DNA of 64,000 nucleotides from Hyphomonadaceae bacterium (GTDB taxonomy: Bacteria > Pseudomonadota > Alphaproteobacteria > Caulobacterales > Aquidulcibacteraceae). Shown piece after piece: positions 1 to 34,886 of the stretch (position 1 is the stretch's first letter; each line of letters begins with the position of its first letter). Both the position numbers and the translations under genes were made by a program. Under the pieces are notes generated by a model. It saw only the letters and a program-made list of their open reading frames with translations, made no database searches and was not told the origin of the DNA. The DNA is taken from assembly GCA_019753105.1 (NCBI GenBank), contig JAIELJ010000010.1, positions 1 through 64,000 of the forward strand. The letters are read 5' to 3'.

Positions 1-75
1 GTGGTGGCGGGTGGACTTGAACCACCTACCTTGGGGTTATGAATCCCACGCTCTAACCAGATGAGCTACGCCACC
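1..75 (-). tRNA. tRNA-Met (CAT), 3' end at window edge
   Basis: The reverse complement folds as a cloverleaf. A 7-bp acceptor stem (GGTGGCG with CGCCACC), a GCTC/GAGC D stem, a CAT anticodon in the loop TTCATAA, and a GGTGG/CCACC T stem around TTCAAGT are all visible. Position 2 is the discriminator A and only the first C of the CCA tail is inside the window. The last anticodon-stem pair is an A-C mismatch. The anticodon could also belong to tRNA-Ile2, but the acceptor and D arms look like elongator tRNA-Met. Confidence 0.9.
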
Positions 76-16352: not shown

Positions 16353-17258
16353 CTATTCGTTGGGCAGCGACACGCGCCAAAGCGAATAGCGGTCATTCTC
16401 CGATCGATGATAATAGAGCGCGCGATTGTCCGGTGAGAATGTCGGCGCTTCGAAGAGGCCGCCGCTGATTGCGCTAATCAGAACGGGTTCGCCGAATGCG
16501 GCGTTTACGTCATCGCGGCGTGCGATCCAGATGCCGAACCGGATGAAAGGCAGTCGCCCTTCGGCACGCGTGAATGCGATCATCAGGCCATCAGACGAAA
16601 GTGCTGGCGCGAATTCCAATGCGGGGGTGTTGAGGGCCTGCAGTGTGGCGTCACGCTCCGGCGTGATCGCAAAGCCAAGATCGCCGAGCGCTCCCGAGCG
16701 CAAGTCCGCACGCGCCGGAAACGGATCGCCGGTAAACGTGCCGTCGGCGTAGATGATGGTGTCGCCGTCCGCCGCGATCTCCGCGTCGAACACGAGCCGG
16801 CCGAGTATGTTTTGGGTCAGTGCGGATTGCAGCGCGACGTTCTCGATATCGCCGTTGATCCAGTCGCCACAATAGATCGTGCTTAAGCTCTCGAAATACG
16901 AGCGCAACGAGACGAAGCACAGACGCCCATCTGCTGACATCGTCGCGACAGCGTCGAGATTGTCGCTGGTGTTGGCGCCCGCCACCAAGCCGCGATAGCG
17001 GAACGTGACATCATCGACGCGCTCGGCCCAATGCAGATCCGTCTGCTCGGCAGGCTGATTGCGATTGTTGAAGAACAGAATCTGGCCGTCTCTGCTCAGA
17101 AACGGCTCCATCACGTCGCCGCTATAGCCTGCAACAGTCACTGGCTGAGGATTCTCGAAAGCCGCCCAGCTTGGCGCTTCAACATATGCAGATTGTGCGC
17201 AGGCTGATGCAAACGCAGTGGTGGCTAGCGCCGTCAGCAAGGCTGGGATGTGTCTCAA
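16353..17258 (-). CDS. TolB-like beta-propeller (PD40) exported protein
   Basis: This 301-residue protein has an N-terminal signal (MRHIPALLTALATTAFASAC). The Cys at about 20 may be a lipid-attachment site. Repeated blades of the PD40 type follow (FLSRDGQILFFNNR, TMSADGRLCFVSLRS, ALSSDGLMIAFTRAEG, TFSPDNRALYYHRSE). The TTG start overlaps the stop of the upstream aminotransferase gene by 4 bases, making it the last gene of the bkd-like operon. Function is unknown, and such propellers usually bind proteins or ligands in the periplasm. Confidence 0.75.
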   Translation of the reverse strand: MRHIPALLTALATTAFASACAQSAYVEAPSWAAFENPQPVTVAGYSGDVMEPFLSRDGQILFFNNRNQPAEQTDLHWAERVDDVTFRYRGLVAGANTSDNLDAVATMSADGRLCFVSLRSYFESLSTIYCGDWINGDIENVALQSALTQNILGRLVFDAEIAADGDTIIYADGTFTGDPFPARADLRSGALGDLGFAITPERDATLQALNTPALEFAPALSSDGLMIAFTRAEGRLPFIRFGIWIARRDDVNAAFGEPVLISAISGGLFEAPTFSPDNRALYYHRSENDRYSLWRVSLPNE

Positions 17259-18415
17259 GCTATAGCTCGCAAAGCTTCGACGAAACGCGGGATATCCGCC
17301 TCGCGCAAGCCTGCGACATTGATACGCGCGGCGTCTGTCATGTAAATACCGTGCGTTTCGCGGAGCGTGACGACTTGCGCCTCAGTCAGCGGCAACGTCG
17401 AGAACATGCCTTTCTGCGCGGCGATCAGATGCATGGGCAGTGAGTTGACGCGCTCGGCCGCCAATGCGGCGCGTGTGCGCTTGATGTGGCTGCGGATGGC
17501 GTCGAGTTCATCGCGCCAGGATTGGCGGAGCGCCTCGTTGCTTAACACTTCGCGCACGATCGCCGCGCCGTGGTCCGGCGGCATGGAATAATTGGCGCGG
17601 GCGATGGCGGCGAGATTACTCATCGTGGCGGCGCGCGATTGTTCTGACGTTTTCACAAAGAGTGCGCCGACGCGTTCGCGGTAGATGCCGAAGCTCTTGG
17701 CTTCCGACACGGCGATCACGGCCTCCGGCACGCGCTCGACCAATGCGCGCAGGCCGGCGACGTCTTCATCGATGCCATCGCCGAAGCCTTGGTATGCGAG
17801 ATCGAGGAAGGGCACGATGCCGCGTGCATTGAGCGCTTCGGCCAGCGCGATCCATTGCGTCATCGAGAAATCGGCGCCGAGCGGGTTGTGGCAGCAGGCT
17901 TGTAGAATGACGCTATCGCCGCGTTGCACTGAATCGAACGCGCCAATCAGCGCGTCCATGTCGATGCGTTGCTCGGCGATGTTGAAGAACGGTGCGTCGA
18001 CCGGCTCAAGCCGCGCGGCGCGCACAATCGAGGGATGGTTCGGCCAGCACGGTTGCGGCAGCACGATGCGCTTGGCGCCGCTCTCGCGCAGCAGATCGCA
18101 GCCGAGGCGCAGCGCGCCGGTGCCGCCAACAGCTTGGATCGAGGTGAACTCGCGCGCCATCTCGCCGAACACGAGTTGGCCGACCAGCCGCAGGAAATCG
18201 ACGTCGCCCTGTTGACCGACATAAGTCTTCGTCTTCTGGCTCGCGAGCAATAGCGCTTCGGCGTCTTTCACCGCTTTCATCACGGGCGTGTTGCCGGTCG
18301 CGTCTTTGTAAACGCCGACGCCGAGATCAATCTTGTCGTTTCGCGGATCTTCGCGAAACATCTTGATGATCTTGAGCAGAGGATCGGGCGCCTTCGGCGC
18401 GAGGTCAGCGAGCAT
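17255..18415 (-). CDS. aromatic amino acid aminotransferase (class I, TyrB/AspC type)
   Basis: This 386-residue PLP enzyme carries the subgroup Ialpha signatures. LGVGVYKDATGNTPVMKAV is near the N-terminus. LDLAYQGFGDGIDED holds the Asp and Tyr that contact PLP. SEAKSFGIYRERVGA holds the Schiff-base lysine at about residue 240. Such enzymes interconvert aspartate or aromatic amino acids with 2-oxo acids. It lies 3 bases after the E2 gene and so may feed 2-oxo acids to the dehydrogenase. Whether it prefers branched or aromatic substrates cannot be told. Confidence 0.85.
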   Translation of the reverse strand: MLADLAPKAPDPLLKIIKMFREDPRNDKIDLGVGVYKDATGNTPVMKAVKDAEALLLASQKTKTYVGQQGDVDFLRLVGQLVFGEMAREFTSIQAVGGTGALRLGCDLLRESGAKRIVLPQPCWPNHPSIVRAARLEPVDAPFFNIAEQRIDMDALIGAFDSVQRGDSVILQACCHNPLGADFSMTQWIALAEALNARGIVPFLDLAYQGFGDGIDEDVAGLRALVERVPEAVIAVSEAKSFGIYRERVGALFVKTSEQSRAATMSNLAAIARANYSMPPDHGAAIVREVLSNEALRQSWRDELDAIRSHIKRTRAALAAERVNSLPMHLIAAQKGMFSTLPLTEAQVVTLRETHGIYMTDAARINVAGLREADIPRFVEALRAIA

Positions 18416-18418
18416 CGG

Positions 18419-19654
18419 TCAGTCTTCCAGTGGCCAGGTTTCGAGAATTTCGACAAAGCGCGTGAGCCAGGCATTGGTCTGATGCCCGTCGAGCACGCGG
18501 TGATCGATGGTGAGCGACACGTACGCCATCGGCTTAATCACCATGGCATCAGCACCGATCGAGCGCACGACGACGCGCTTTTCGAGCTTGCCGACGCCGA
18601 GGATCGCCGATTGCGGTTGGTTGATGATGATCGGCGTCGCGACAAGCGAGCCGGAGACGCCGTGATTGGAGATCGTGAACGTGCCGCCCTGCACGTCGGC
18701 CGGCTTCAACGCGTTTTTGCGTGCGCGCTCGGTGAGATCGGTAAGCGTGGCAGCGGTTTCCTTCAGCGTCAGCGCTTGCGCGCGCTTGATGACAGGAACG
18801 ATGAGGCCCTTATCGCCGAGGGCGACGCCCATGCCGATGTTTACGTCTTCGAAGACTTCGAGGAAATCGTCATGCCAGCGTGCATTGACGTTCGGCGAAA
18901 CTTTCATTGCTTCTGCCGCGGCGCGGACGATGTAGGCGGAGAAGGTGAGTTGGACGCCAGACTTGGCGAAAGCGTCCTTGTGTTTCGCGCGGTGCGCGAT
19001 GATGGCAGAGAAATCCGCTTCGAACACGGCGGTGACGTGCGGTGCTACGGCGACGGAGCGCGACATGTGCTCGGCGATCGAGCGGCGCATCGCGTCATGC
19101 GGGATGCGGCCGCCTTTGACGGGCGCTGCGGGTGCGCTGGGTTTCGCAGCGGGCTTAGCGGTGGGGCCGCGCGCGATGTGATCTTCGACGTCTTTGTGCG
19201 TGATGCGGCCGTCGCGGCCCGTCCCGGTGACGGTGTTTGCGTCGACGCGATGTTCCGAGAGCAAGCGCTTCACGAGCGGTGAGAGGCGCATTTCTCTTCC
19301 GTCGTCATTCCGGGGCGCTGCTTTAGCAGCGAGCCCGGAACCTAGGGGCCGAGGATCCGTCGTTTGCCCCTGGGTTCCGGGTCGCGACTTTGTCGCGTCC
19401 GGAATGACGGTTAGGCCAAGTGATAGTACACCAAGCGTAGCACCCGGCGCAGCTTCATCACCTTCGTTCAACGCAATCGACGCAAGCACGCCATCAGCCG
19501 GCGCCGGCACTTCAACTGCAACCTTATCCGTCTCAAGCTCAACGATCGGCTCGTCCTGCTTCACGGCGTCGCCGACTTTTTTCAGCCACGCGCGCACAAC
19601 GGACTTCGAGCCTTCCTGTTCGAGCGGCATCACGATGTTGGTGGTGTCGCTCAT
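18419..19654 (-). CDS. branched-chain 2-oxoacid dehydrogenase E2 (dihydrolipoyl acyltransferase)
   Basis: This 411-residue protein has one lipoyl domain (about 1-80, lipoyl Lys 44 in VELETDKVAVEVP) and a peripheral subunit-binding domain (about 124-160, RLSPLVKRLLSEHRVD). The catalytic domain ends with the active site DHRVLDG (His about 385, Asp about 389). The ATG overlaps the E1 stop by one base. The linker at residues about 83-118 is not normal linker sequence but the translation of an intergenic palindromic repeat at 19303-19409, which preserves the frame. No E3 gene is adjacent. Confidence 0.93.
   Translation of the reverse strand: MSDTTNIVMPLEQEGSKSVVRAWLKKVGDAVKQDEPIVELETDKVAVEVPAPADGVLASIALNEGDEAAPGATLGVLSLGLTVIPDATKSRPGTQGQTTDPRPLGSGLAAKAAPRNDDGREMRLSPLVKRLLSEHRVDANTVTGTGRDGRITHKDVEDHIARGPTAKPAAKPSAPAAPVKGGRIPHDAMRRSIAEHMSRSVAVAPHVTAVFEADFSAIIAHRAKHKDAFAKSGVQLTFSAYIVRAAAEAMKVSPNVNARWHDDFLEVFEDVNIGMGVALGDKGLIVPVIKRAQALTLKETAATLTDLTERARKNALKPADVQGGTFTISNHGVSGSLVATPIIINQPQSAILGVGKLEKRVVVRSIGADAMVIKPMAYVSLTIDHRVLDGHQTNAWLTRFVEILETWPLED
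19303..19409. repeat. palindromic repeat element inside E2 coding sequence (copy 1)
   Basis: This 107-bp element has terminal inverted repeats CGTCATTCCGG / CCGGAATGACG. Internal inverted segments are also present (AGCCCGGAACCTAGGGGC against GCCCCTGGGTTCCGGGTC). It closely resembles the intergenic element at 33695-33798. Here it lies within the E2 gene and is read in frame, encoding a stretch that begins VIPDATKS and ends PRNDDGR. Confidence 0.85.
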
Positions 19655-21732
19655 CAGAAGCCCACCAGTTCTTCGATTTTCGCCGCAATCTTTTCGACCG
19701 AGGGCAGCGCCCATTCCATCAGGTCGGGGTGATGTGGGCTCGGGATGTCGGGCATCGTCAGGCGCGCGACGGGTGCGTCGAGATCGAGGAAGGCTTGATC
19801 CGCGACGACCGCCGCGATCTCGGCGCCGAAGCCGGCAGTGCCGATGTCTTCGTGCACGATGAGGCAGCGATGCGTGCGCTTCACGGATGCGAGCACGGCT
19901 GCGCTGTCCCACGGCGCGAGCGTGCGGAGATCGAGAATGTCGGCGCTGGCGCCGAGTTTTTCCGCCGCCGCTTCGCAGCGTTCGACCATCGCGCCCCAGG
20001 CAACGATGGTGATGTCGGCGCCTTCGCGCACGCGCTTGGCGACGCCGAACGGCAGCGCGAAGTCATCGCCCGGATAGGGGCGGCGCGCGCTTGCCGCGTC
20101 GAGCATGTTGCGGTGTTCGAGGAACATGACCGGGTCGTTGCCGCGCAGTGCTGTGCGCAGAAGTCCGACGGCGTCTTCGGCGTTTGATGGGCACGCGACA
20201 CGCCAGCCTGGGGAGTGCACGAACTGCACTTCGTTGGTCTGAGAGTGCCAAGGATCGCCGCACTTGAAGAAGCCAACGGGCATGCGCACGACCATCGGCG
20301 CAGCGAAACGGTTGGCGGTGCGCCAGCGCATCGTGCCGCAATCGTTGATCTGCTCGCAGGCTGGATCGGCGTATTTGCGGAATTGGATTTCCGGCACTGG
20401 CATCAGGCCTGCGATCGCCATGCCGACGGCGCGGCCGATTATGCCTTCCTCGGAGAGCGACGTGTCGAAGACGCGGCCTTCGCCGTATTTTTCTTGCAGG
20501 CCGAGCGTCACGCCGTGGACGCCGCCTTTGGGGCCGACGTCTTCGCCGAAGATCAGCACGCGCGGATTGACCGCGAGTTCGTGGTCGAGCACGCGGCGGA
20601 TGGCCGTTATCATATTGACGCGCGCGCCTTCCGGCTTGGCGACATCGTTTACGCGTGGCGCGGCATAGCCGCTATTCCAAAGCCCGCCTTCGTCTTGCAG
20701 CGCGCCGGTTTCGCTGAACACGAAGCGCGTGACGGCTTCGGGCGCGCTGACCGGGCGTTGATCGGCGATTTGTGCGGCGCGGCGGACGCGCTCTTCGGCC
20801 TTGGTTTGCGCTGCTTCCCAATCCTTCTCGCTCATCAGAGAGGGAACGAGGTGGGCTTTCAGCTTGGGCAGCGGATCGCGCGCCCATTCGGCGTCGACGG
20901 TGTCCTTGCTCTTGTACGCTTGCGTGTCCTGGAAGGAGTGGCCTTGCAGGCGCGGCACGGTGAGGTGAACGAGTGCTGGGCCGTTGCCGGCGCGGACATG
21001 TGCGACTGCATCCGCAATCAACTCAGAAGCTTCGGCAGGATCGGTGCCGTCGCCGTCGCAGATTTTCAGGCCTTGGAAGCTGGCGAGATTGGCGGCGATG
21101 TTGCAGCCGGGCGTTTGCAGCCAGCTTGGCGTTGAGATGCCGTAGCCATTGTCTTCGATGTAGAAGAGCATCGGCAGCTTCAGGGTCGTCGCCATGGTGA
21201 GCGCGGCCCAGAAGCCGTTTGTCGCCACCGATGCATCGCCGCCGAGCACGACGGCGATGGCGCCATCGTACGCGCGGTCGCCGAGGACGTTTTTGTGATA
21301 CTCGATCGCCTGCGCGTAGCCGGCGGTGGGCGTGTATTGCGCGCCGACGCCGCCGCACATAGGCAGAGCCGATGCGCCGTTGGCGTTCGGATAGTTGAAG
21401 ACGACGCCAATATCGCGCCCATCGCTATAGCCGCCGGCGCGACCCATCGCAGAGCCGAGCGCGTCTTCGAGCGCTACGCCCAGCGAAAGCAGGATCGGGC
21501 GCGAGCGATAATAGCCGCAGACGGCGTCCTTAGGGTGCGTGAGGTGAAGGCCGAGCAGCACTTGCGCCATGTCGTGGCCGCGGGCGCTGAACTGGTAGAA
21601 AATCTTCTTCCCCGGAACGAGTTCCTTTTCCTCAATCGCGTCCATCGCGCGCGAGGTTTGGACGAGTTCGACGACGCGCTTCCAATCGGTGGCGGCGACG
21701 GCTTTCGGGGCAGGCTTTGGTTTGGCGCTCAT
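19654..21732 (-). CDS. branched-chain 2-oxoacid dehydrogenase E1, fused alpha-beta subunits
   Basis: This 692-residue thiamine-diphosphate enzyme decarboxylates 2-oxo acids and acylates E2. The first half is an alpha subunit with the ThDP/Mg motif GGDASVATNGFWAALTMATT...DNGYG. The second half is a transketolase-type beta subunit (LIFGEDVGPKGGVHGVT, FDTSLSEEGIIGRAVGMAI, IVAWGAMVERC). Many bacteria encode these as two genes. ATG 21732 was chosen, with a TTG four codons upstream as the alternative. It is the first gene of the operon, divergent from an Lrp regulator. Confidence 0.92.
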   Translation of the reverse strand: MSAKPKPAPKAVAATDWKRVVELVQTSRAMDAIEEKELVPGKKIFYQFSARGHDMAQVLLGLHLTHPKDAVCGYYRSRPILLSLGVALEDALGSAMGRAGGYSDGRDIGVVFNYPNANGASALPMCGGVGAQYTPTAGYAQAIEYHKNVLGDRAYDGAIAVVLGGDASVATNGFWAALTMATTLKLPMLFYIEDNGYGISTPSWLQTPGCNIAANLASFQGLKICDGDGTDPAEASELIADAVAHVRAGNGPALVHLTVPRLQGHSFQDTQAYKSKDTVDAEWARDPLPKLKAHLVPSLMSEKDWEAAQTKAEERVRRAAQIADQRPVSAPEAVTRFVFSETGALQDEGGLWNSGYAAPRVNDVAKPEGARVNMITAIRRVLDHELAVNPRVLIFGEDVGPKGGVHGVTLGLQEKYGEGRVFDTSLSEEGIIGRAVGMAIAGLMPVPEIQFRKYADPACEQINDCGTMRWRTANRFAAPMVVRMPVGFFKCGDPWHSQTNEVQFVHSPGWRVACPSNAEDAVGLLRTALRGNDPVMFLEHRNMLDAASARRPYPGDDFALPFGVAKRVREGADITIVAWGAMVERCEAAAEKLGASADILDLRTLAPWDSAAVLASVKRTHRCLIVHEDIGTAGFGAEIAAVVADQAFLDLDAPVARLTMPDIPSPHHPDLMEWALPSVEKIAAKIEELVGF

Positions 21733-21833
21733 GGAACGCGACAATACTGGCGTTTTGGCGAATAATCTGTGATATTTGAGGCGGGGGCGGCGCTATCGGC
21801 GCATGAACCATGCAGTTACAGGCTATATCGAGC

Positions 21834-32985: not shown

Positions 32986-33027
32986 GCCCCTGGATTTAGG
33001 ATCGCGCTGCGCGCGTCCGGCATGACG
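32986..33027. repeat. partial copy (right half) of the palindromic repeat
   Basis: This 42-base segment matches the right half of the repeats at 19303-19409 and 33695-33798. It starts at GCCCCT, runs through GGATCGCGCT and GCGTCCGG, and ends at ATGACG, with one change in the terminal GGAATGACG (GGCATGACG). That change creates an ATG at 33022 in frame with the following dioxygenase gene. Confidence 0.7.
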
Positions 33028-33039
33028 AAGGTGGCAAGC

Positions 33040-33666
33040 GTGACAATGGAGCAGGAAGGAAGGGCGTGGTTTCGGAGCGCGCTTTCTGAGAGCGAGTTGA
33101 GCGCCCTCGATAGCGCCTGCGAAATGGGAGATGTGCCTAGTAAACGCCTATTGCTCGAACCATCCGCGGCACTTAACACGCTCGCGGCGCAACTCCTGCC
33201 GAGCGCACGCCCTGTGCGCGTCATCGCGTTTAACAAGACCGAAGACAACAACTGGACCTTGCCCTGGCACCAAGATCGCGTCGTGGCCCTGCGCGAGCGC
33301 GTCGAGATGCCGGGCTTCAACAACTGGACCAACAAGGCTGGCACTTGGCACGCCGAGCCGCCGATCGAGCTCCTGGAGCGCATCATCTTCGCGCGTGTTC
33401 ATCTCGATCCTGCCGATGAAGAGAACGGTTGCCTCCAACTCGCGCTCGGCACACACGCACGGGGCAAGATCACTGCGGCAAATGCAGAAGTCATCGCGAC
33501 CGCCGCGCCGATAGAGAACTGCGTTGCGAAACGCGGCGACGTGCTGTTCGCCAAGGCGCTCATCCTGCATCGCTCGTCGCCGTCACGCGTCAGCGCCGGG
33601 CGGCGCGCGATCCGTGTCGATTATTGCGCGGAAGATCTGCCAGCGCCGCTCACATGGGCAGCTTGA
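33040..33666 (+). CDS. phytanoyl-CoA dioxygenase-like Fe(II)/2-oxoglutarate oxygenase
   Basis: This protein of about 208 residues has the facial-triad pattern HxD in LPWHQDRVVALR and a distal His in LILHRSSPSR. An Arg that should bind 2-oxoglutarate follows (RRAIRVDY). This places it in the PhyH-like family of non-heme iron hydroxylases. The substrate is unknown. The GTG at 33040 follows AAGG at good spacing. The ATGs at 33022 (inside the repeat fragment) and 33046 are alternatives. It sits between the mmsA and 3-hydroxyisobutyryl-CoA hydrolase genes, flanked by two repeat copies. Confidence 0.78.
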   Translation: MTMEQEGRAWFRSALSESELSALDSACEMGDVPSKRLLLEPSAALNTLAAQLLPSARPVRVIAFNKTEDNNWTLPWHQDRVVALRERVEMPGFNNWTNKAGTWHAEPPIELLERIIFARVHLDPADEENGCLQLALGTHARGKITAANAEVIATAAPIENCVAKRGDVLFAKALILHRSSPSRVSAGRRAIRVDYCAEDLPAPLTWAA

Positions 33667-33694: not shown

Positions 33695-33798
33695 CGTCAT
33701 TCCGTGGCATCGCGTAGCGATGAGCCCGGAACCCAGGGGCAAATGACGAGCTCGCGGCCCCTAGGTTCCGGATCGCGCTTCGAGCGTCCGGAATGACG
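33695..33798. repeat. palindromic intergenic repeat element (copy 2)
   Basis: This 104-bp element has terminal inverted repeats CGTCATTCCG / CGGAATGACG and internal GAGCCCGGAACCCAGGGGC / GCCCCTAGGTTCCGG. It is nearly the same as the element inside the E2 gene. Here it occupies the gap between the dioxygenase and the hydrolase genes. The supernumerary TGACGAGCTCG in the centre differs between copies. Confidence 0.85.
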
Positions 33799-33818: not shown

Positions 33819-34886
33819 GTGTCTGATATTTTTACGAGCAGCGCCAACGGCCTCGCGCGCATCACGTTAAACCGCCCGGCAGCGCTGCACGCGCTCAACA
33901 CGCACATGTGCGCGAACATGATTCAGGCGCTGTTGGCGTGGCGGGACGATGCGAGCGTCAATGCGGTGTTGCTCGATCATGCAGAGGGGACGCGCGGCTT
34001 TTGTGCGGGCGGCGATATTCGCATGATCGCGGAGAGCGGCGCGAAGGACGCCAAAGAGGCGAGCGAATTCTTCTTCACTGAATATCGCCTCAACCATCTC
34101 CTCTTTCACTATCCAAAGCCGGTCGTGGCGCTGATCGATGGCGTGACGATGGGGGGCGGTGTTGGCATTTCGATGCCAGCGCGTTTCCGCATCGCCACTG
34201 AGAACACGACTTACGCCATGCCGGAAACCGGCATTGGCTTGTTTCCCGATGTCGGCGGCGGCTGGTATCTGCCGCGCAAGGCTGGCGCGATCGGAATGTG
34301 GCTCGCGCTCACCGGCGCGCGGCTGAAAGCGGCGGACTGCCTGATCGCCGGCGTCGCCACGCATTTCATGCCGACGGAAATCCTCGCTGCCGCGCGCGCG
34401 CAGATCGCGGGCGCAGCGCAGACGCATGATGCGGGGCGTGCGCTGGAGAGTGGGCTCGATGCTTTGAGCGAAAGCGCGGGTCGTCCGAAAGAGCTGACGC
34501 CCGAAAACATCGAGCGCATCAACCGCATCTTTGCGCTGAGCAGCGTCGAAGAAATTTTTGGCGCTCTGGAAGCCGATGGTTCTGAATGGTCGAAGACGCA
34601 GCTCGCGACGCTACAAACGAAGTCGCCGCAGGCGATGAAGATCACCTTCCGTCAGATGCGCGAAGGCGCTGCGAAGGCGAGTTTCGCCGATGAGATGGTG
34701 AGCGAGTATCGGCTGGCGTCGCGTGTGTGCGCGCGCCACGATTTTCAAGAAGGCGTGCGGGCGCTGATCGTCGATAAGGACAACAAGCCGGTGTGGAACC
34801 CCGCGACGCTCGAAGGCGTCAGCGATGCGCTGCTCGATGAACTGTTCGCACCGTTGCCGTCTACCGATGAATGGACGCCGCTTTAG
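33819..34886 (+). CDS. 3-hydroxyisobutyryl-CoA hydrolase-like (ECH_2) protein
   Basis: This 355-residue crotonase-superfamily protein is of the longer hydrolase type. GFCAGGDIRMIAESG and LIDGVTMGGGVGISMPARFR form the oxyanion hole. MPETGIGLFPDVGGGW carries the Glu and Asp expected in the hydrolase. Length and motifs separate it from simple enoyl-CoA hydratases. The enzyme releases CoA from 3-hydroxyisobutyryl-CoA in valine degradation, fitting its position between mmsA and mmsB. The start is a GTG preceded by GGCGGGAAGA. Confidence 0.9.
   Translation: MSDIFTSSANGLARITLNRPAALHALNTHMCANMIQALLAWRDDASVNAVLLDHAEGTRGFCAGGDIRMIAESGAKDAKEASEFFFTEYRLNHLLFHYPKPVVALIDGVTMGGGVGISMPARFRIATENTTYAMPETGIGLFPDVGGGWYLPRKAGAIGMWLALTGARLKAADCLIAGVATHFMPTEILAAARAQIAGAAQTHDAGRALESGLDALSESAGRPKELTPENIERINRIFALSSVEEIFGALEADGSEWSKTQLATLQTKSPQAMKITFRQMREGAAKASFADEMVSEYRLASRVCARHDFQEGVRALIVDKDNKPVWNPATLEGVSDALLDELFAPLPSTDEWTPL

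Follow-up and report, generated by a model that had tools for sequence, protein, structure and literature searches.

A dispersed palindrome that encodes the linker of an E2 acyltransferase, with signs of recurrent linker replacement within one genus

The stretch of DNA analysed here (the window, 64,000 nucleotides) is part of a 3.87-Mb genome, labelled G000 (contig C10). It encodes the E2 component of a 2-oxoacid dehydrogenase complex. Adjoining the E2 gene are those for a fused E1 (upstream) and for an aromatic amino acid transaminase (downstream; Table 1). The E2 protein did not reach a curated cut-off in NCBIfam, and no substrate was assigned to the complex. A tRNA gene was found at the window edge (2-75, minus strand).

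Table 1. Features of the E2 region and of related sites; positions are those of the window unless a locus is named
Feature	Positions	Strand	Source or remark
E2 (dihydrolipoyllysine acyltransferase) gene, 2-oxoacid dehydrogenase complex, 411 aa	18419..19654	-	
Lipoyl domain of E2, residues 8-76	19427..19633	-	Pfam
E3-binding domain of E2, residues 123-157	19184..19288	-	Pfam
Catalytic acyltransferase domain of E2, residues 183-406	18437..19108	-	Pfam
Fused alpha-beta E1 gene, adjoining E2 on its upstream side	19654..21744	-	NCBIfam; tree marker
Aromatic amino acid transaminase gene, adjoining E2 on its downstream side	17255..18415	-	NCBIfam; tree marker
Class A palindromic element, 107 bp	19303..19409	-	read in phase C-GTC-ATT-CCG as VIPDATKSRPGTQGQTTDPRPLGSGLAAKAAPRND
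Terminal inverted repeat, arm 1	19303..19313		CGTCATTCCGG
Terminal inverted repeat, arm 2	19399..19409		CCGGAATGACG
Central hairpin of element	19334..19381		16-nt arms 19334-19349 and 19366-19381
Second window copy of the class A family	33695..33798	+	between ORFs 33022-33666 and 33819-34886; non-coding by codon test
Class A accD-folC spacer	L185:2502-2606 (G000)		orthologous spacers in L129, L179, L184, L187, L191, L192

By the Pfam domain bounds, a palindromic element with perfect terminal inverted repeats of 11 nt fills the linker that joins the lipoyl domain to the E3-binding domain. The predicted fold of this element consisted of an outer stem and three hairpins (-68.3 kcal/mol, z = -9.3), and none of 200 shuffled sequences was as stable. 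The element extends from the third base of codon 82 to the first base of codon 118, so that residues 83-117 are encoded entirely by the repeat, and it contains no stop codon in the E2 frame. This confirms the presence of an in-frame palindromic repeat in the E2 linker, which a preliminary description of this DNA had proposed from the inverted ends, the stop-free reading and a likeness to the element at 33695-33798; the two copies matched at 76% over positions 1-107. The second linker of the window E2, between the E3-binding and catalytic domains, was without a palindrome.

The element belongs to a dispersed family, here called class A. Twelve full copies from G000 had a mean column identity of 81% when aligned, and their consensus fold contained 35 pairs, six of which had changes on both sides. 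A covariance model of the family (R1) was used for genome searches. R1 gave 71 matches over both strands of G000, which collapsed to at least 39 places; this count is a lower bound, as 150 of the 3222 first-look candidates were scored. The element thus has many other copies in its genome; their absence would have spoken against the preliminary description. Matches to R1 were also found in all 25 of the same-genus genomes searched (G000 included) and in 10 of the 16 genomes from other families of the order. The relatives were mostly metagenome-assembled genomes labelled Hyphomonadaceae, Caulobacterales, Alphaproteobacteria or Terricaulis. A comparison with Rfam gave no hit to the window's element, nor any in eight loci from relatives. 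No target-site duplication was evident by eye in 12 flanks, and no empty-site pair showing a single clean insertion with target duplication was found.

A codon model was used to separate coding from intergenic copies. A first version missed the E2 copy itself and was dropped as too weak; the retrained version that took its place, tried on 200 positions from five genes of the window (which were partly in its training set), recognised 196 of them, and it recovered seven to nine of the nine class A sites in E2, depending on the threshold. This model would overlook insertions near a start or stop codon. Among the 39 places in G000, only the E2 copy was called coding on both sides. Of the 106 dispersed copies put through the test, G000 contributed 38 and seven relatives 68, for the most part their best-scoring ones; 3 passed at the strict threshold (0.05), 5 at a looser one (-0.1), and 13 at the loosest (-0.2). 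The five that passed at the looser threshold, out of the 13, were inspected individually, and four of them were intergenic, with the names of the neighbouring genes assigned by eye: L129 lies between accD and folC, L104 lies between murB and a CBS-type gene, and L123 and L139 both follow an acyl-CoA dehydrogenase gene. These four were ruled out as coding insertions. In the fifth, L130 (G010), a class A copy at about 1501-1606 may be an N-terminal insertion, apparently read in the frame of an M20 peptidase after its start and ahead of its signal peptide. Outside E2, then, the sampled copies look intergenic in the main. The copies in L139 (G009) and L123 (G013) are placed right after the acyl-CoA dehydrogenase gene in what looks like an orthologous site, occupied in two genomes.

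To the 107-bp repeat in the window E2 can be added a range of palindromes in its orthologs. R1 was run on 31 sources, namely the window plus 30 neighbourhoods of E2 orthologs (193 kb). Class A was found at E < 1e-6 in nine of these, the window and eight other loci; in those eight it was confined to the E2 linker, and the window had its additional copy at 33695. There were 28 distinct orthologous linkers: nine of class A, nine of class B, four of class C, and six with no palindrome or a decayed one, classes B and C being assigned by eye from the arm sequence. The arms were GGACCGCCGGCTTCCAGCCGGC in class B and TTGGACCGCCGGCGTCCTCGCCGGC in class C. The outer GGACCGCCGGC is common to both classes, which may be akin on this evidence. 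DNA resembling class B or class C was found in all 16 of the same-genus genomes searched, with 2-68 matches per genome for class B and 4-107 for class C, counted over both strands. The 28 linkers include that of L059 (UBA12322), which nests inside the genus on the tree. Left out of the count were G015 (E2 in three pieces), G002 (best match 42% identical), G043 (a fragment without the linker), the duplicates G042 (same linker as L060), G044 (as L042) and G045 (as L051), the distant or paralogous rows L037-L040, L061 and L065, and the outgroups L034 and L035. The E2 ortholog of G015 (L036 / L064) aligned as three overlapping pieces, possibly because of frameshifts from sequencing error.

Had the element simply been added to an existing linker, as was first proposed, relatives would show a clean gap at residues 83-118. 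The ortholog alignment contained no such gap. Linker length ranged only from 96 to 144 nt in 27 linkers, and was 108 and 129 nt in the two outgroups; this narrow range indicates that the repeats take the place of an earlier linker and do not extend it. Nor did the predicted gain of about 36 residues hold, since five orthologs with no recognisable element were 399-401 aa long (matched region) as against 411 aa for the window E2. The repeat is the linker itself, and barely lengthens the protein. The outgroup orthologs, which come from another family of the order, had unrelated and unfolded linkers, so that repeat-free orthologs at this distance do not carry the same linker sequence, in agreement with the preliminary description.

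The fold z of the linkers fell under the lowest of 100 background windows from E2 (-2.83) in 20 of the 22 occupied linkers, in none of five unoccupied linkers, and in neither outgroup linker; the strongest linker fold had a z of -10.7. One linker counted as decayed, that of G041, was 43% identical to the element, yet none of 500 shuffles aligned as well, and on the strength of this alignment it has the look of class A in decay. The score of the alignment to the element was reached by 1 of 500 shuffles for G004, 25 for L042, and 70 for an outgroup linker.

Comparison of the class A linkers with each other and with dispersed copies points to more than one origin. The element lies in the sense orientation to E2 in three of the nine (G010, G012, and G013) and in the antisense orientation in six, as told by R1 scores that differ by 9 to 36 bits. 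The copies in G001, G011 and G018 were 87-97% identical, and at this level of identity are taken to be one class A copy by descent. In the remaining six, the best dispersed match was 80-88% identical while the best match among other E2 copies was 76-80%, although this comparison favours the dispersed copies, which form the larger pool. The best dispersed match came from the same genome in one of the six (G012); the own copies of RBC057 were outside the sample. From these values we infer about seven separate entries of class A into the linker. Alternatively, homologous recombination or gene conversion in the E2 segment could have carried linker alleles from lineage to lineage, with no new insertions. 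The class C linkers of L053 and L059 are consistent with such an exchange, being 93.8% identical where the lipoyl codons are 75.3% identical, with a peak of identity that covers the linker. As a general explanation, though, recombination is unlikely, because outside G001, G011 and G018 the class A linkers have only the distant matches in other E2 genes given above, and because the two orientations of class A do not fit one spreading allele.

A tree was inferred from E1, the E2 core, and the transaminase for 27 of the 28 rows and two outgroups. The class labels changed 10 times on this main tree over the 27 rows, and seven times over the 22 rows of classes A, B and C. Constraint to a single clade was rejected both for class A (p-AU 4.5e-80) and for class C (p-AU 8.5e-8). 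Two pairs of sisters with support of 100/100 carried unlike classes: L045 (A) with L048 (B), and L032 (A) with L059 (C). The tree of the E2 core alone gave 12 changes, with good support for only 4 of its 26 inner branches. The labels were clustered on the main tree all the same, with 11 changes (outgroup included) compared with a mean of 16.4 for shuffled labels, tighter than all 200 shuffles, which indicates that inheritance explains part of the pattern. The class B loops align across several E2 genes (by eye), and class B looks to have been inherited over much of the genus. A single ancestral insertion passed on vertically, with class A diverging in place and its orientations arising through inversion by template switching, would account for this clustering and these loops, for the common ancestry of the copies in G001, G011 and G018, and for the decayed linker of G041. 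It is nevertheless improbable: it does not accommodate the rejected clades or the sisters of unlike class, six of the nine class A copies are nearer to some dispersed copy than to any other E2 copy, and classes B and C are different sequences. The event is a recurrent replacement of one linker, and not a single insertion of 36 residues.

The class A linkers are also uniform in phase. All nine have a length of 2 mod 3, compared with 41 of the 100 dispersed copies with intact ends, and all nine are read in the phase C-GTC-ATT-CCG. For copies of this length, that phase was open in 69 of 82 strands, while the other two phases were open in 0 and 37. Most of this constancy in length and phase can be put down to selection that keeps the frame open, since a phase survives only if it is free of stops.

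Linkers of other E2 types served as control sites, with z < -4 as a uniform fold criterion. Linker 1 of the E2 studied here fell below this value in 15 of 27 cases, the linkers of its paralog SucB in 0 of 26 at either position, and those of pyruvate dehydrogenase E2 in 5 of 22 for linker 1 and 0 of 22 for linker 2. These numbers bear on the possibility of selection on the hairpin itself, with palindromes recruited for a role in the mRNA, for instance slowing the ribosome on its way from one domain to the next or shielding the transcript. In its favour are the palindromes in 22 of the 28 linkers, the very strong folds (z down to -10.7), the folds in the pyruvate dehydrogenase E2, and the preservation of pairing in the dispersed copies through the two-sided changes at 6 of 35 pairs. 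Against it, none of the 26 SucB linkers folds in this way, 6 of the 28 linkers have no palindrome, and E2 copies decay (for example in G041 and in the class B arms) with pairs left unrestored, as judged by eye; there is little likelihood that such selection is what filled the site. A chance palindrome, a codon-usage artefact or an assembly error, any of which might be suspected where DNA is rich in GC and full of long ORFs that overlap, can be dismissed with near certainty given the z of -9.3, the 39 genomic places, and the same site in other assemblies.

The element is best read as REP/RPE-like. CGTC-tagged REPs are mainly alphaproteobacterial, mostly intergenic, and without a dedicated transposase (Di Nocera et al. 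2013, PMC3733652). The element has in common with them, besides these traits, CGTC ends, a head-to-head dimer, a CCA-type tail, and a spacer with complementary ends (PMC3733652). CGTC was terminal at both ends of the E2 copy and, when 115 copies were examined, at 186 of the 230 strand ends, and in the 12 aligned copies it was present at both outer ends in nine and at one end in three. Each half of the E2 copy starts with CGTC, followed by a TTCCGG/CCGGAA stem and a tail similar to CCA. One half has CCA itself as its tail and the other has CTA, while the 12-copy consensus has CCA. By eye, TTCCGG pairs with CCGGAA in this stem and the first A faces C, the stem of CGTC REPs being 8-9 bp long and starting with A and T pairs. 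The half-unit pattern was found on 118 of 230 strands, and both halves in 44 of 115 copies. In contrast to the 4-5 nt loops of CGTC-tagged REPs, the loops of the E2 copy are 18 and 21 nt long (the loop region of the element being about 16-21 nt) with an inner hairpin of their own, and because of this longer loop the element was not filed under CGTC-1 to -4; deviating loops have been remarked in Bradyrhizobium CGTC-1 (PMC3733652). The consensus of Br-REP2 from Bradyrhizobium ends in ..CGCCCCGGAATGA, as does one half of the element (by eye; PMC5082802). Br-REP2 is described as part of a larger element and located in a 3' UTR; Br-REP1 and Br-REP2 were counted in intergenic regions, and the term 'in-frame' is absent from the main text of that paper (PMC5082802). 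The Y1-family transposase expected in a genome with RAYT-mobilised REPs was not found in G000 (0 matches to PF01797), while the same search was positive in 5 of 14 genomes used as a control.

The likeness to the RPEs of Rickettsia suggested in the preliminary description holds as well, since this too is a dispersed palindrome read in frame, here in a linker, and RPE-4 and RPE-6 of R. conorii have been placed in the CGTC-tagged REP group (PMC3733652). RPEs are palindromes of 105-146 bp read in frame in conserved proteins, spread over many genes in 19 reading frames, and one RPE-bearing product, guanylate kinase, was reported to be translated and active (PMC2229807). Likened by description, the element resembles this type in its 107 bp (within the 100-150 bp range), its inverted ends of 11 nt, and its in-frame copies in a conserved protein gene. 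Unlike RPEs, with their many genes, its clear coding insertions among the sampled copies are confined to one E2, where the repeat replaces the linker.

Intragenic REPs are already known. REPs are defined as seldom overlapping coding regions (PMC12306157), but intragenic units have been described, flexible linkers have been proposed as neutral sites for them, and different REPs occupy about the same recB site in two Xanthomonas species (PMC3733652). The main text of the last paper does not contain 'dihydrolipo' or 'dehydrogenase', and no exchange of families within one linker was found in its account of intragenic units. No report of linker turnover by different palindromes, or of palindromic repeats in E2 linkers, was found among the titles and abstract openings listed for openly licensed papers.

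Taken as a whole, the data make it quite probable that a REP/MITE-like palindrome was repeatedly inserted in frame into a length-constrained E2 linker, and replaced it. The element is built as a head-to-head pair of CGTC-tagged units flanking a GC-rich central hairpin, and would be moved in trans by an enzyme. Insertion between the lipoyl and E3-binding domains would come first, at a point where a disordered peptide should be nearly neutral. As the linker would be free in sequence and constrained in length, the older sequence would be lost afterwards, a loss suggested by the linker lengths, leaving the repeat as the linker. In this genus the site would have been filled several times, by separate class A insertions and by other palindromes (B and C), with old copies decaying. 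A further and rather doubtful proposal is that E2 linkers are an exchange site in which the resident palindrome attracts the next, by insertion into cruciforms or by template switching at them. If true, the linkers of a conserved enzyme would have been swapped repeatedly for unrelated pieces of mobile elements within one genus while its domains stayed fixed. In the papers cited above, palindromic repeats read in frame appear mostly as insertions spread among many genes. Because the present cases would be parallel events at one position of one enzyme in one genus, with related genomes available for comparison, mobile palindromes as suppliers of linkers, the tolerance of any sequence of the right length, and the movement of transposase-less repeats can all be tested now. 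Such linkers also call for caution when they are aligned as homologous sequence.

Recurrent occupation was not limited to the E2 gene. Of 17 loci, 7 had class A in the spacer between accD and folC, and both orientations were represented (Table 1); the spacer was 9-17 nt long in seven others, two had other spacers, and one was not assessable. Both this site and the E2 linker were picked because one genome bore the element there. The repeated occupation of the accD-folC spacer indicates that this family generally tends to fill orthologous sites repeatedly, the E2 linker being the coding instance of this behaviour.

Palindromes were also seen at linker 2 in orthologs of the window E2. In nine relatives this linker was of class C or of a further palindrome type (arms CTCCCC..GGGGAG), as judged by eye; four of the nine had z < -4, and the others look decayed. 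The strong folds in linker 1 of pyruvate dehydrogenase E2 (L250, L251, L252, L254, and L259) had z values of -4.7 to -9.8, and by eye the peptides of these linkers resemble the palindrome type of E2 linker 2.
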